Origin: Comamonas flocculans
Lineage (GTDB): Bacteria; Pseudomonadota; Gammaproteobacteria; Burkholderiales; Burkholderiaceae_C
Reading direction: 5' to 3'
Assembly (NCBI RefSeq): GCF_007954405.1
Contig: NZ_CP042344.1
Span: 2,170,001-2,234,000, forward strand
DNA: 64,000 nucleotides
This document shows, one piece after another, positions 19,271 through 25,525 of this stretch; position 1 is the first letter of the stretch, and the number at the start of each line of letters is the position of its first letter. The notes beneath the pieces are model-generated. The model saw nothing but the letters and a program-made list of their open reading frames with translations. It was not told the DNA's origin and did no database searches. The translations under genes and the position numbers were made by a program.

Positions 19271-19735
19271 ATGGATTTGCGAAAACTCAAGACTCTGATC
19301 GATCTCGTATCCGAGTCGAACGTCTCCGAACTGGAAATCACCGAGGCCGAGGGCAAGGTGCGCATCGTCAAGAGCGGCGCGGGGGCGGCCGGCCAGATGG
19401 TGCCCATGGCGATGCAGGCGCCCGCTCCGGCGTCCGTGGTGCAGGTGCCGGCCCAGGCTGCGCCTGCGCCGGCCGCGGCCCCGGCCGAAGAGGCCATTGC
19501 CGGCAACGTGGTCAAGTCGCCTATGGTCGGGACCTTCTATCGCTCGTCCAGCCCGGGCGGCGCGGCCTTCGTGGACGTGGGCAGCCACGTCAAGGAGGGC
19601 GACGTGCTGTGCATCATCGAAGCCATGAAGATCCTCAACGAGATCGAGGCAGACCAGAGCGGCGTCATCACCCGCGTGCTCGCGGAAAACGGCCAGGCGG
19701 TCGAATACGGCCAGCCCCTGTTCGTCATCGAGTGA
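19271..19735 (+). CDS. accB: Biotin carboxyl carrier protein of acetyl-CoA carboxylase
   Basis: AccB carries the biotin that AccC carboxylates, for malonyl-CoA synthesis. The 154-residue product has the N-terminal LKTLIDLVSESNVSELEI segment, a flexible Pro/Ala-rich linker at about residues 45-75, and the biotinyl domain with EAMKI, where Lys120 is the biotin site. The more usual form is EAMKLMN; here it is EAMKILN. It lies upstream of accC, but the normally short accB-accC gap is expanded by a hairpin and a three-unit tandem array. Confidence 0.98.
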   Translation: MDLRKLKTLIDLVSESNVSELEITEAEGKVRIVKSGAGAAGQMVPMAMQAPAPASVVQVPAQAAPAPAAAPAEEAIAGNVVKSPMVGTFYRSSSPGGAAFVDVGSHVKEGDVLCIIEAMKILNEIEADQSGVITRVLAENGQAVEYGQPLFVIE

Positions 19736-19769: not shown

Positions 19770-19792
19770 GATCAGCCAAGCACAAGGACGCC

Positions 19793-19909
19793 ATGTTCAA
19801 GAAAATTCTGGTCGCCAATCGCGGCGTTCTTGCCGCAGGCAAGGCGAAGCAAATCGCACTGGCGCGCGCCAGCGCGCGGGCGATGAGCCGCGAGAGCAGC
19901 CATGTTTAA
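19793..19909 (+). CDS. Leader ORF 1 of the accC array (38 codons)
   Basis: The ORF begins [11 protein letters not shown] like AccC and then runs into the unit-specific [20 protein letters not shown] and ends [13 protein letters not shown] lies a few bases before the ATG, the best ribosome-binding site in the array. The stop TAA at 19907-19909 lies inside the start of unit 2 and overlaps its ATG (19902). Whether the peptide is made is unknown. A role as a translated leader is inferred from the silent substitutions and the stop/start overlaps. Confidence 0.45.
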   Translation: MFKKILVANRGVLAAGKAKQIALARASARAMSRESSHV

Positions 19910-20018
19910 AAAGATTCTGGTCGCCAATCGCGGCGTTCTTGCCGCAGGCAAGGCGAAGCAAATCGCACTGGCGCGCGCCAGCGCGCGGGCGATGAGCCGC
20001 GAGAGCAGCCATGTTTAA
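19902..20018 (+). CDS. Leader ORF 2 of the accC array (38 codons)
   Basis: It has the same 38-residue product as leader ORF 1, encoded with different silent codons in the first lines (TTT AAA AAG). It starts inside the end of ORF 1 and stops inside the start of ORF 3, each time by an 8-nt overlap ATGTTTAA. Its ribosome-binding site would be the GAGAG about 6-10 nt upstream. Translation may depend on termination-reinitiation. Confidence 0.4.
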   Translation: MFKKILVANRGVLAAGKAKQIALARASARAMSRESSHV

Positions 20019-20127
20019 AAAGATTCTGGTCGCCAATCGCGGCGTTCTTGCCGCAGGCAAGGCGAAGCAAATCGCACTGGCGCGCGCCAGCGCGCGGGCG
20101 ATGAGCCGCGAGAGCAGCCATGTTTAA
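20011..20127 (+). CDS. Leader ORF 3 of the accC array (38 codons), overlapping the accC start
   Basis: It is identical to leader ORF 2. Its TAA stop (20125-20127) overlaps the accC ATG at 20120 by 8 nt, so a ribosome finishing this ORF ends exactly at the accC start. This would couple accC translation to passage through the leader chain. Confidence 0.4.
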
Positions 20128-21469
20128 AAAGATTCTGGTCGCCAATCGCGGCGAAATCGCCCTTCGCATCCAGCGCGCCTGCGCCGAGCTCGGCGTCAAG
20201 GCCGTGATGGTCTATTCCGAGGCCGACCGCGACGCCAAGTACGTCAAGCTCGCCGACGAGGCGGTGTGCATAGGCCCCGCGCCGTCTGCGCAGTCCTACC
20301 TCAACATGCCGGCGATCATCTCGGCCGCCGAGGTGACGGACGCCGAAGCCATCCACCCCGGCTATGGCTTCCTGTCGGAAAACGCCGACTTTGCCGAGCG
20401 CGTGGAGCAAAGCGGCTTCCAGTTCATCGGCCCGACGCCCGAGAACATCCGCATGATGGGCGACAAGGTCTCGGCCAAGAGGGCGATGATCAAGGCCGGC
20501 GTGCCCTGCGTCCCCGGCTCCGATGGCGAACTGCCCGACGACCCGGCGCAGTGGCGCAAGATCGCCAAGAGCATAGGCTACCCCGTCATCATCAAGGCCG
20601 CGGGCGGCGGTGGCGGGCGCGGCATGCGCGAGGTGCACACCGAGGCGGCGCTGATCAATGCGGTGCAGCTGACCAAGGCCGAGGCCGAGGCGGCTTTCGG
20701 CAACCCTGCGGTCTACATGGAAAAATTCCTGCAGAACCCGCGCCACATCGAGATCCAGATCCTCGCGGACAAGCACAAGAACGCGGTCTACCTGGCCGAG
20801 CGCGACTGCTCCATGCAGCGGCGCCACCAGAAGGTGGTGGAAGAGGCGCCGGCGCTGGGCATACCGCGCAAGCAGATCGAGAAGATCGGCGAGCGCTGCG
20901 TCAGCGCCTGCAAGAAGATCGGCTACCGCGGCGCGGGCACCTTCGAATTCCTGTACGAAAACGGCGAGTTCTACTTCATCGAGATGAACACCCGCGTGCA
21001 GGTCGAGCACCCGGTGACCGAATGGATCACCGGCGTGGACATCGTGCGCTGGCAGATCAAGGTGGCGGCGGGCGAGAAGCTCGATTTCGCGCAGAAACAC
21101 GTGCAGGTGCGGGGTCACGCCATCGAGTGCCGCATCAATGCCGAGGACCCCTACAAGTTCACCCCTTCGCCGGGGCGCATCACCAAGTGGCATGCGCCGG
21201 GCGGACCGGGCGTGCGGGTGGATTCGCACATCTACACCAACTACTACGTGCCGCCGAACTACGACTCCATGATCGGCAAGATCATCGTGCATGGCGACAC
21301 CCGCGAGCAGGCGCTGGCGCGCATGCGCACCGCGCTCAACGAAACCGTGGTCGAGGGCATTTCCTCCAACATCCCGCTGCACAGCGAACTCATGGTGGAT
21401 GCGCGCTTCGTCGCCGGCGGCACCAGCATCCACTATCTTGAAGAGTGGCTCGCGGCGCGCAAGCGCTGA
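20120..21469 (+). CDS. accC: Biotin carboxylase subunit of acetyl-CoA carboxylase
   Basis: AccC carboxylates the biotin on AccB with ATP and bicarbonate, the first half-reaction of fatty-acid synthesis. The 449-residue product has the full family length: N-terminal [20 protein letters not shown]-grasp loop [11 protein letters not shown] and the catalytic [14 protein letters not shown]. The ATG at 20120 is the only one of the four [11 protein letters not shown] starts that reads into the enzyme. prmA follows after 9 bp. Confidence 0.99.
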
Positions 21470-22417: not shown

Positions 22418-23944
<1,527 letters not shown>

Positions 23945-24982: not shown

Positions 24983-25525
24983 TCAGGGCTTGCTCTGGGT
25001 CGGGAAGGGCCAGGCGGCTTGCGGGTTCAGCGTGGTCTTGGCCGGCGCCGTCTTCTTGGCGGGGGCGGCCTTTTTTGCGCTCGCCTTCCTGGCCGGTGCC
25101 GCTGCCTTCTTTGCAGGCGCCGCCTTCTTGGCCGGTGCTGCGGCCTTCTTCGCTGGCGCTGCGGCCTTCTTGGCCGGGGCCGCCTTCTTCACTGCCGCCT
25201 TTTTTGCGGGTGCGGCCTTTTTCGCCGGAGCGGCTTTTTTCACCGCCGCCTTCTTGGCCGGTGCCGCAGCTTTCTTGGCGGGCGCGGCCTTCTTGGCCGG
25301 CGCTGCGGCCTTCTTCACGGGAGCCTTCTTGGTCGGCGCCGCCTTCTTCACCGCCGCCTTCTTGGCGGGCGTTGCCGCCTTCTTTGCCGGCGCGGCCTTC
25401 TTGGCGGGCACGGCCGCCGCCTTCTTCACGGCGGCTTTTTTGGCCGGCGCTGCTGCCTTCTTTGCAGGGGCAGCCTTCTTCGCTGGTGCCGCCTTCTTCG
25501 CGGCGGGCTTCTTCGCAGTTGCCAT
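24983..25525 (-). CDS. Histone H1-like Lys/Ala/Pro-rich DNA-binding protein
   Basis: This is a nucleoid-associated protein of the eukaryotic-H1-tail type found in Burkholderiales and Bordetella. The 180-residue product is almost wholly built of PAKKA and KKAAVKKA repeats with no globular domain; only the last 20 residues (NPQAAWPFPTQSKP) differ. It is predicted to bind DNA through its high positive charge and to be disordered. Two ATGs are adjacent: the one at 25525 has AAGGAG 6 nt upstream, the one at 25528 only 3 nt, so the second is preferred. Repeat copy number often varies between strains in this family. Confidence 0.88.
   Translation of the reverse strand: MATAKKPAAKKAAPAKKAAPAKKAAAPAKKAAVKKAAAVPAKKAAPAKKAATPAKKAAVKKAAPTKKAPVKKAAAPAKKAAPAKKAAAPAKKAAVKKAAPAKKAAPAKKAAVKKAAPAKKAAAPAKKAAAPAKKAAPAKKAAAPARKASAKKAAPAKKTAPAKTTLNPQAAWPFPTQSKP

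Follow-up and report, generated by a model that had tools for sequence, protein, structure and literature searches.

The accB-accC junction

In the window, as we call the whole 64,000-nucleotide stretch of DNA analysed here, the gene accB for the biotin carboxyl carrier protein (19271..19735, plus strand; NCBIfam TIGR00531 BCCP, 180.1 bits at a cutoff of 115.2) is located upstream of accC, which encodes a biotin carboxylase of 449 aa (20120..21469, plus strand; TIGR00514, 731.9 bits at a cutoff of 626.5). Between the two genes lie three exact 109-bp units on the plus strand (19793..19901, 19902..20010 and 20011..20119), the third of which adjoins accC. Each unit consists of the first 34 bp of accC, termed head, and a body of 75 bp; for unit 1 these are the native head at 19793-19826 and the body at 19827-19901. 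TRF over 19790-20153 gives a period of 109 with 3.3 copies and a match of 98%, and the three 146-nt copies show a mutual identity of 98–100%. Every unit gives rise to a leader ORF of 38 codons on the plus strand (19793..19909, 19902..20018 and 20011..20127), whose TAA is located inside the ATGTTTAA of the next head and overlaps the next ATG; for leader 3 this is the ATGTTTAA of accC. Heads within the array differ only by TTC/TTT, AAG/AAA and AAA/AAG, all of them silent, and over its first 29 nt the unit 1 head agrees exactly with the one accC head of the unit-free sister species G007. An earlier note on this DNA had described the units, their composition, the 38-residue leaders and the silent differences in the same way, and coordinates, TRF and alignments agree with it.

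Several structural features can be assigned to unit 3 on the plus strand. Hairpin A, CTTGCC-GCA-GGCAAG at 20047..20061, is apparent from the sequence and the DNA fold and is repeated at 19829 and 19938; the RNA minimum-energy fold draws this region of unit 3 differently. Hairpin C at 20080..20095 is found in both RNA and DNA folds and is supported by covariation. It is followed by GGGCGAT..GCCGCGA at 20096..20111, which we termed antihead and which, judged by pairing statistics and fold, is the putative 5' arm of a start-hiding stem; the 3' arm, TCGCGGC gaa ATCGCCC at 20146..20162, lies within accC codons 9-15. In the predicted fold of the window hairpin C is followed by this stem with the accC ATG in its loop (z -2.92). 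By inspection, a Shine-Dalgarno-like GAGAG precedes this ATG at 20110..20114.

Within the 3.33-Mb genome the complete 75-bp body is present in three copies, all of them in the accC array, which excludes a chance origin of the array. Three other genome matches to the body cover 23–45 bases, and one of them is a second carboxylase cassette (L006). In this genome (G000) the conserved carboxylase-head motif is matched at five sites, of which three have a cassette. L006 and L067 (G000:C1:967513-967647 and 3091647-3091781) are carboxylase genes with one 115-bp cassette each, the bodies being unlike the accC one.

Across independent genomes of many genera the arrays comprise 1 to 5 units, with a single unit in 141 of 162 by a loose count. 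The longest array found consists of five ~139-nt units in front of a carboxylase gene (L274, G129:C12 ~836500-837200). Conserved units in variable copy number, as anticipated in the earlier note, are thus present in relatives. An assembly artefact, which had been offered as an alternative, was rejected as very unlikely because the assembly is a single contig and units are found in many genomes. Neutral tandem duplication, the other alternative proposed, cannot account for everything, given that different genera share a conserved body, but the copy number itself may be neutral.

We also noticed two repeats elsewhere in the window. A Pro-Glu repeat tract is located near the accC region at 23099-23209 in the ORF 22418-23944. 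From 25036 to 25498, GC-rich units of 18-39 bp (TTCTTGGCCGGC...) form a long imperfect repeat that could, by eye, read Ala/Lys-rich on the minus strand.

Distribution and host genes

A query of unit plus head was matched in 36 of 60 relatives, many of the matches covering the head only. Among the loci read, units precede accC in G002, G004, G005, G006, G023 and G031, and the sister species G007 and G008 have accC without a unit. Absence in close relatives, which together with a lack of effect on the AccC level had been put forward as an argument against the coupled leaders, applies to these two species but not to the other relatives. Other carboxylase genes of the relatives carry different bodies between duplicated heads. 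The strict two-head pattern was detected in 47 of 399 genomes of the same family, with 0 matches for the reversed control, and in 1 of 229 genomes drawn across the class, namely the window's own. This pattern requires an intact first head, which biases estimates of first-head conservation upward. In the named collection at least 119 stretches match; among the matches listed (80 of these) most belong to Burkholderiales, and Azonexus, Dechloromonas, Thauera, Propionivibrio, Methylophilus and three Pseudomonas are represented as well. With a covariance model built on the body core, 46 matches were obtained in 25 of 100 family genomes. Such a patchy distribution indicates that the cassette is dispensable.

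Some matches deviate from the usual form. The pattern is matched without the usual body in L190 (Aeromonas rivuli) and L201 (a Lysobacteraceae MAG). In L190 and L241 carboxylase heads are duplicated around an unrelated-looking body without the hairpins, which may represent a decayed copy or an independent event. In the Pseudomonas loci L172, L187 and L198 the cassette precedes a urea-carboxylase-like gene; over its first 37 nt the L172 body is identical to that of the betaproteobacterial L214, which hints at transfer or strong constraint.

Searches of mobile DNA were also carried out. On viral contigs one pattern gave one unrelated match and the body-core pattern gave none; this sole viral match, L254, consists of repetitive coding sequence and lacks a body, and a phage origin was discarded. 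A plasmid search with one unit returned 220 records, none of them covering 80% of the query, and the plasmid rows listed with a named gene are carboxylase genes; a plasmid origin was likewise discarded.

All 38 matches of the body model in 20 genomes are located behind a copy of the host's head, and all 46 matches in 100 genomes behind a carboxylase head copy; the two sets overlap. One match (G093:C119) lies at a contig end and its gene is cut off. The first head is eroded in L262, L266, L268, L270, L271, L281 and L282. Each paralogue duplicates its own head (MFKK, MFEK, MKK, MFET and others). The body model was built from carboxylase cassettes, includes the antihead and scored 55-150 candidates per genome, so that this test of confinement is not fully independent. 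With the same bias of the model, copies at many unrelated genome sites, as expected of MITE- or REP-like repeats, were not found. Seven host proteins were compared with NCBIfam: accC of the window passes the accC cutoff (626.5) and L067 does so narrowly (629.2), and the other five, several of them given as fragments, match the same models strongly but below the whole-protein cutoffs. The best match of a Pseudomonas host is urea carboxylase (885 bits over the first 500 residues), that of the L130 host pyruvate carboxylase; the labels 'PCC/ACC-alpha-like' and 'MCC-type' were assigned from head residues and neighbours. Among the matches examined, the cassette has so far been found only at the starts of biotin-carboxylase-family genes.

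The host range bears on the purpose suggested in the earlier note, namely metering of AccC against AccB by the array, for which copy number would serve as the dial. Three units do lie between accB and accC in the window, and a BCCP motif was detected upstream of 46 of 49 accC-class or other EIALR cassettes. By their post-head residues, however, only 47 of 142 distinct bodies precede accC-class genes and 5 other EIALR genes, the remaining 90 being found before other carboxylase classes. The BCCP motif is present in just 1 of 87 of these other loci and thus missing from 86 (6 loci had too little upstream sequence), and most arrays consist of one unit. We consider metering of AccC against AccB very unlikely to be what the array is for.

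The leader stop and the stem with the following gene

Most units measure 108-119 bp (149 of the 153 distinct ones), within an overall range of 97-209. The leader stop was mapped relative to the second start, ATG2, in those 143 of the 153 units whose leader start is contained in the contig. Excluded were L212, which is cut by a contig end and has no leader start, and, from both leader and stem counts, the non-canonical L190, L201, L241 and L251 as well as the 181-bp pair in L197. In 142 of the 143 units, which like all sequences counted here are related and do not represent independent events, the leader stops between -24 and +19 nt from ATG2. L163 has a 117-bp unit without a leader stop; it reads through, and leader and gene may be fused in frame. 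Three modes, one per frame, place the stop near the start: ATGTTTAA, ATGA and an upstream TGA. A +1 frameshift from the leader into accC at GTT TAA A was rejected as an explanation because the stop falls near the start in all three frames.

Where the unit length is 1 mod 3, 107 of 109 leaders end at +8 or +11 and the remaining two at -13 and -16. The stops at +8 and +11 are formed by TTTAA, TTTGA or an equivalent. In this length class the first head has TTC and the second TTT 47 times, with the reverse found once. In the remaining frames, which place the leader stop elsewhere, TTC/TTT occurs 6 times, the reverse once and TTC/TTC 14 times. If TTT is read as TTC in silico, only 2 of 98 leaders still stop within +20 and the median stop moves to +180.5. 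Unit-free heads in the fetched loci have TTC in 12 cases and TTT in 5. The proposal that the change from TTC to TTT creates the stop of the preceding leader is borne out by this one-sided difference and by the loss of most stops in silico. Judged from these comparisons of sequences, the leader stop is under selection, and coupled translation of the leader and the real start, which had been suspected from the window, looks supported.

The leader peptide itself appears to matter less. In the body before the antihead, diversity at codon positions 1/2/3 is 0.449/0.384/0.437 for 118-bp units, 0.352/0.310/0.377 for 109-bp units and 0.488/0.463/0.555 for 115-bp units; no codon-phase conservation is thus visible across the three lengths, and the peptide seems unimportant. 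Classical control by a leader peptide that stalls the ribosome could draw on the presence of a leader ORF which ends at the start in nearly all units. Given a body without codon-phase pattern and several eroded first-head peptides, we regard it as hardly credible.

The predicted fold of the body is itself conserved. For hairpin C, 47 sequences contain 27 cells changed on both sides compared to 4.9 in shuffled alignments, and 97.9% of cells are paired. All 27 both-side-changed cells of the two-helix structure fall in the helix of hairpin C. In hairpins A and B compensated variants were recognized by eye, those of hairpin A including CATGCC/GGCATG and CTGGCC/GGCCAG.

At its 3' end the body consists of the antihead, whose sequence is complementary to codons ~9-15 of the downstream gene. 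In 143 terminal units, pairing of the antihead with its own gene scores 14.79 compared to 12.43 +/- 0.12 for permuted partners (0 of 5000 permutations as high) and 7.0 for shuffled antiheads. The antihead matches the silent third position of the Asn, Arg, Gly, Glu, Ile and Ala codons by several types of Watson-Crick pair: at Gly C-G 81, T-A 25, A-T 11 and G-C 5, at Glu A-T 81 and G-C 30, and at Ile C-G 104, T-A 13 and A-T 7. In alignment A1, pairing extends to 85.5% of the stem cells at register 0 and to 33-43% in the other registers, and 71 cells are changed on both sides compared to 23.8 when shuffled and at most 21 when slid. Two A1 stem columns are mostly non-standard pairs (34 of 58 and 38 of 58), many of which read as tandem G-A mismatches on inspection. 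In one pair of close accC sequences the two arms have changed in a compensatory way, GCG/CGC versus GCA/TGC.

Since the duplicated head does not reach as far as the Glu, Ile and Ala codons, the partner of the antihead is the real gene. Consistently, at 106 sites differing between the two heads, the antihead matches only the second head in 73, only the first in 23 and neither in 10. The antihead triplet opposite codon 15 decodes Cys in 39 of 73 Cys-class but in 3 of 49 Leu-class units, Arg in 6 of 6 and Val in 5 of 5, with 10 of 143 units giving no assignment. Only 10 of 49 Leu-class antiheads decode Leu, so that the outer end of the stem appears loose in accC-type genes. Templated mutation at quasi-palindromes could be behind part of the covariation; conservation of the mismatched columns and the one-sided stop codon speak against it as the only cause. 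In L281 (G118:C1 ~722000), which also has an eroded first head, and in L130 the antihead is displaced upstream of the ATG; these are perhaps dying copies.

We also assessed the predicted accessibility of the starts. In the window the mean unpaired probability over -14..+5 is predicted to be 0.23, compared to 0.38 at the native start. Across loci the unpaired probability of the start region is modestly lower with units (0.41) than in 17 unit-free genes (0.51), although by fold energy the region is far more structured, with -48.0 as against -30.7 kcal/mol. The Shine-Dalgarno duplex in the window amounts to -3.0 kcal/mol at the accC ATG versus -5.1 kcal/mol at the native start 19793. A weak Shine-Dalgarno at the second start is nevertheless wrong as a general rule: for 134 units the mean is -6.59 at ATG2 and -5.19 at the first head, ATG2 being stronger in 80 and weaker in 27. 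Since the site is not weak on average, unaided initiation at ATG2 is conceivable.

Covariation of both stem and hairpin C would also be expected of a regulatory RNA whose start-hiding stem is switched in response to a shared signal, be it biotin, bicarbonate, acyl-CoA or ribosome supply, and the hosts examined are indeed biotin-carboxylase-family genes of different pathways. Such an RNA nevertheless appears unlikely to us, as the conserved unpaired sequence is short (~CAAATYGC) and the matches examined are tied to head duplication, which to our knowledge is true of no known riboswitch. Moreover, no Rfam family reached its gathering score in the window array, and nothing came near it in 8 further loci. 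The best sub-threshold match in the array, the Xoo2 sRNA (23.4 bits, gathering score 45), was dismissed. Xoo2 is conserved only within Xanthomonas oryzae (PMC3039613), and no link to the array is apparent to us.

Proposed ribosome hand-over, possible mobility, and descent

We propose that the cassette is a heritable cis element which hides the true start, hands ribosomes on by termination and reinitiation and spreads via the repeated heads, and assign this reading a probability of about 0.58. The original start of the gene would become the start of a short leader ORF. The body with its small hairpins would end in the antihead, whose pairing with codons ~9-15 of the real gene would place the real Shine-Dalgarno and ATG in the loop of a stem of ~14-19 bp. 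Ribosomes loading at the native site would translate the leader, open body and stem, terminate at or just before the real ATG (ATGTTTAA, ATGA or a TGA few nt upstream) and reinitiate there. The gene would then be translated mainly by ribosomes passed on from its old start, which may tune its expression. Arrays of 1-5 units would expand and contract by recombination between the repeated heads, and the same homology would occasionally let cassettes move between carboxylase genes. The earlier reading of the window is thus upheld in part; it had overlooked that the stem involves codons of the host gene itself and that the cassette is restricted to a single enzyme family.

The main rival is a selfish site-specific mobile element with the target ANRG^EIA, which would insert after codon 11 and carry or duplicate the head, leaving the target gene functional. 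The antihead would serve to recognize the target or would have been templated from it, and leader stop and Shine-Dalgarno would render the insertion harmless. This would account at once for the confinement, the head duplication and an antihead complementary to the target. Occupation of only this site in several paralogues and the patchy occurrence (47 of 399 genomes) fit as well, as does the fact that the antihead spans both sides of the insertion junction. The small hairpins have GNA triloops, which are unusually stable in DNA. Between the sister species G004 (one unit) and G008 (none) the alignment shows a clean 109-bp gap at 92.3% identity over aligned bases; for G000 with three units and G007 with none the identity is 91.1%. 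Such absence, however, is explained equally well by an exact loss through recombination of the 34-bp repeats. We noticed no transposase, integrase or larger autonomous version when reading the fetched loci, the two patterns used on viral contigs retrieved no true copy, and no plasmid record covered 80% of the one unit used as query. In addition, the nearest body belongs to the same paralogue class in 116 of 142 cases, which points to mostly vertical or within-class descent with some exchange. We judge a selfish element of this kind to be rather unlikely.

A combined reading is also possible, if speculative: an undescribed element of ~100 bp would home into ANRG^EIA of biotin carboxylases and duplicate the start of the paralogue it enters, and would at the same time carry an antisense copy of the host codons in silent-site register and protect itself by handing ribosomes over to the masked start.

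Translational coupling with overlapping stop and start and a start-sequestering stem is known from RNA phages and ribosomal-protein operons. As in these, the upstream ORF of the cassette ends at the downstream start, and a predicted long-range stem would mask that start until opened by the upstream ribosome. Unlike in those operons, the upstream ORF is a duplicate of the gene's own first codons instead of a neighbouring gene, and the stem would be formed with the coding sequence of the gene itself, whose silent sites the antihead follows from paralogue to paralogue. Rickettsia palindromic elements, MITEs and REP sequences are likewise short, hairpin-rich and patchy and partly located in genes, but they are dispersed at many sites, whereas the cassette was found only at carboxylase starts and carries the head of the gene. 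Integrative elements that restore an interrupted gene end share with it an insertion that regenerates the complete target gene; they carry an integrase and kilobases of cargo, in contrast to the ~100 bp of the cassette.

In the literature searched, largely freely available work by titles and abstracts, we found no description of the cassette. A GeneTack cluster from a table of 2013 possibly represents the same phenomenon: cluster 697472870, 'Biotin carboxylase', comprises 128 genes with a frame transition in 44 genera (+1), in 75% of which the ATG of ORF2 lies within 10 nt of the ORF1 stop, and is labelled translational coupling (PMC3711429, Table 2). It appears there as a line of the table, and duplication, structure and target specificity are not mentioned in the parts of the text available to us (PMC3711429). 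The mechanism would be a variant of translational coupling, and we leave open that the element itself is possibly a new class.

If the proposal is true, control or a selfish element would be specific to one enzyme superfamily and touch fatty-acid, acyl-CoA and urea metabolism. Coding sequence and inserted antisense copy would evolve together at silent sites, which may constrain codon choice in essential genes. Annotation is affected because the gene start is repeated. The arrays also offer a natural, countable series of 1-5 reinitiation steps for testing the passage of ribosomes between ORFs.

Two observations may reflect exchange. Third positions of the two heads agree more within a unit (0.733) than between units (0.538), which is what recombination between heads would give. 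The cassettes of L067 (G000) and L068 (G002) are identical, with flanks of 96.8% identity upstream and 99.6% downstream, and the accC units of the two genomes match at 93%; on these identities, the whole L067/L068 locus may have been transferred between the two species.
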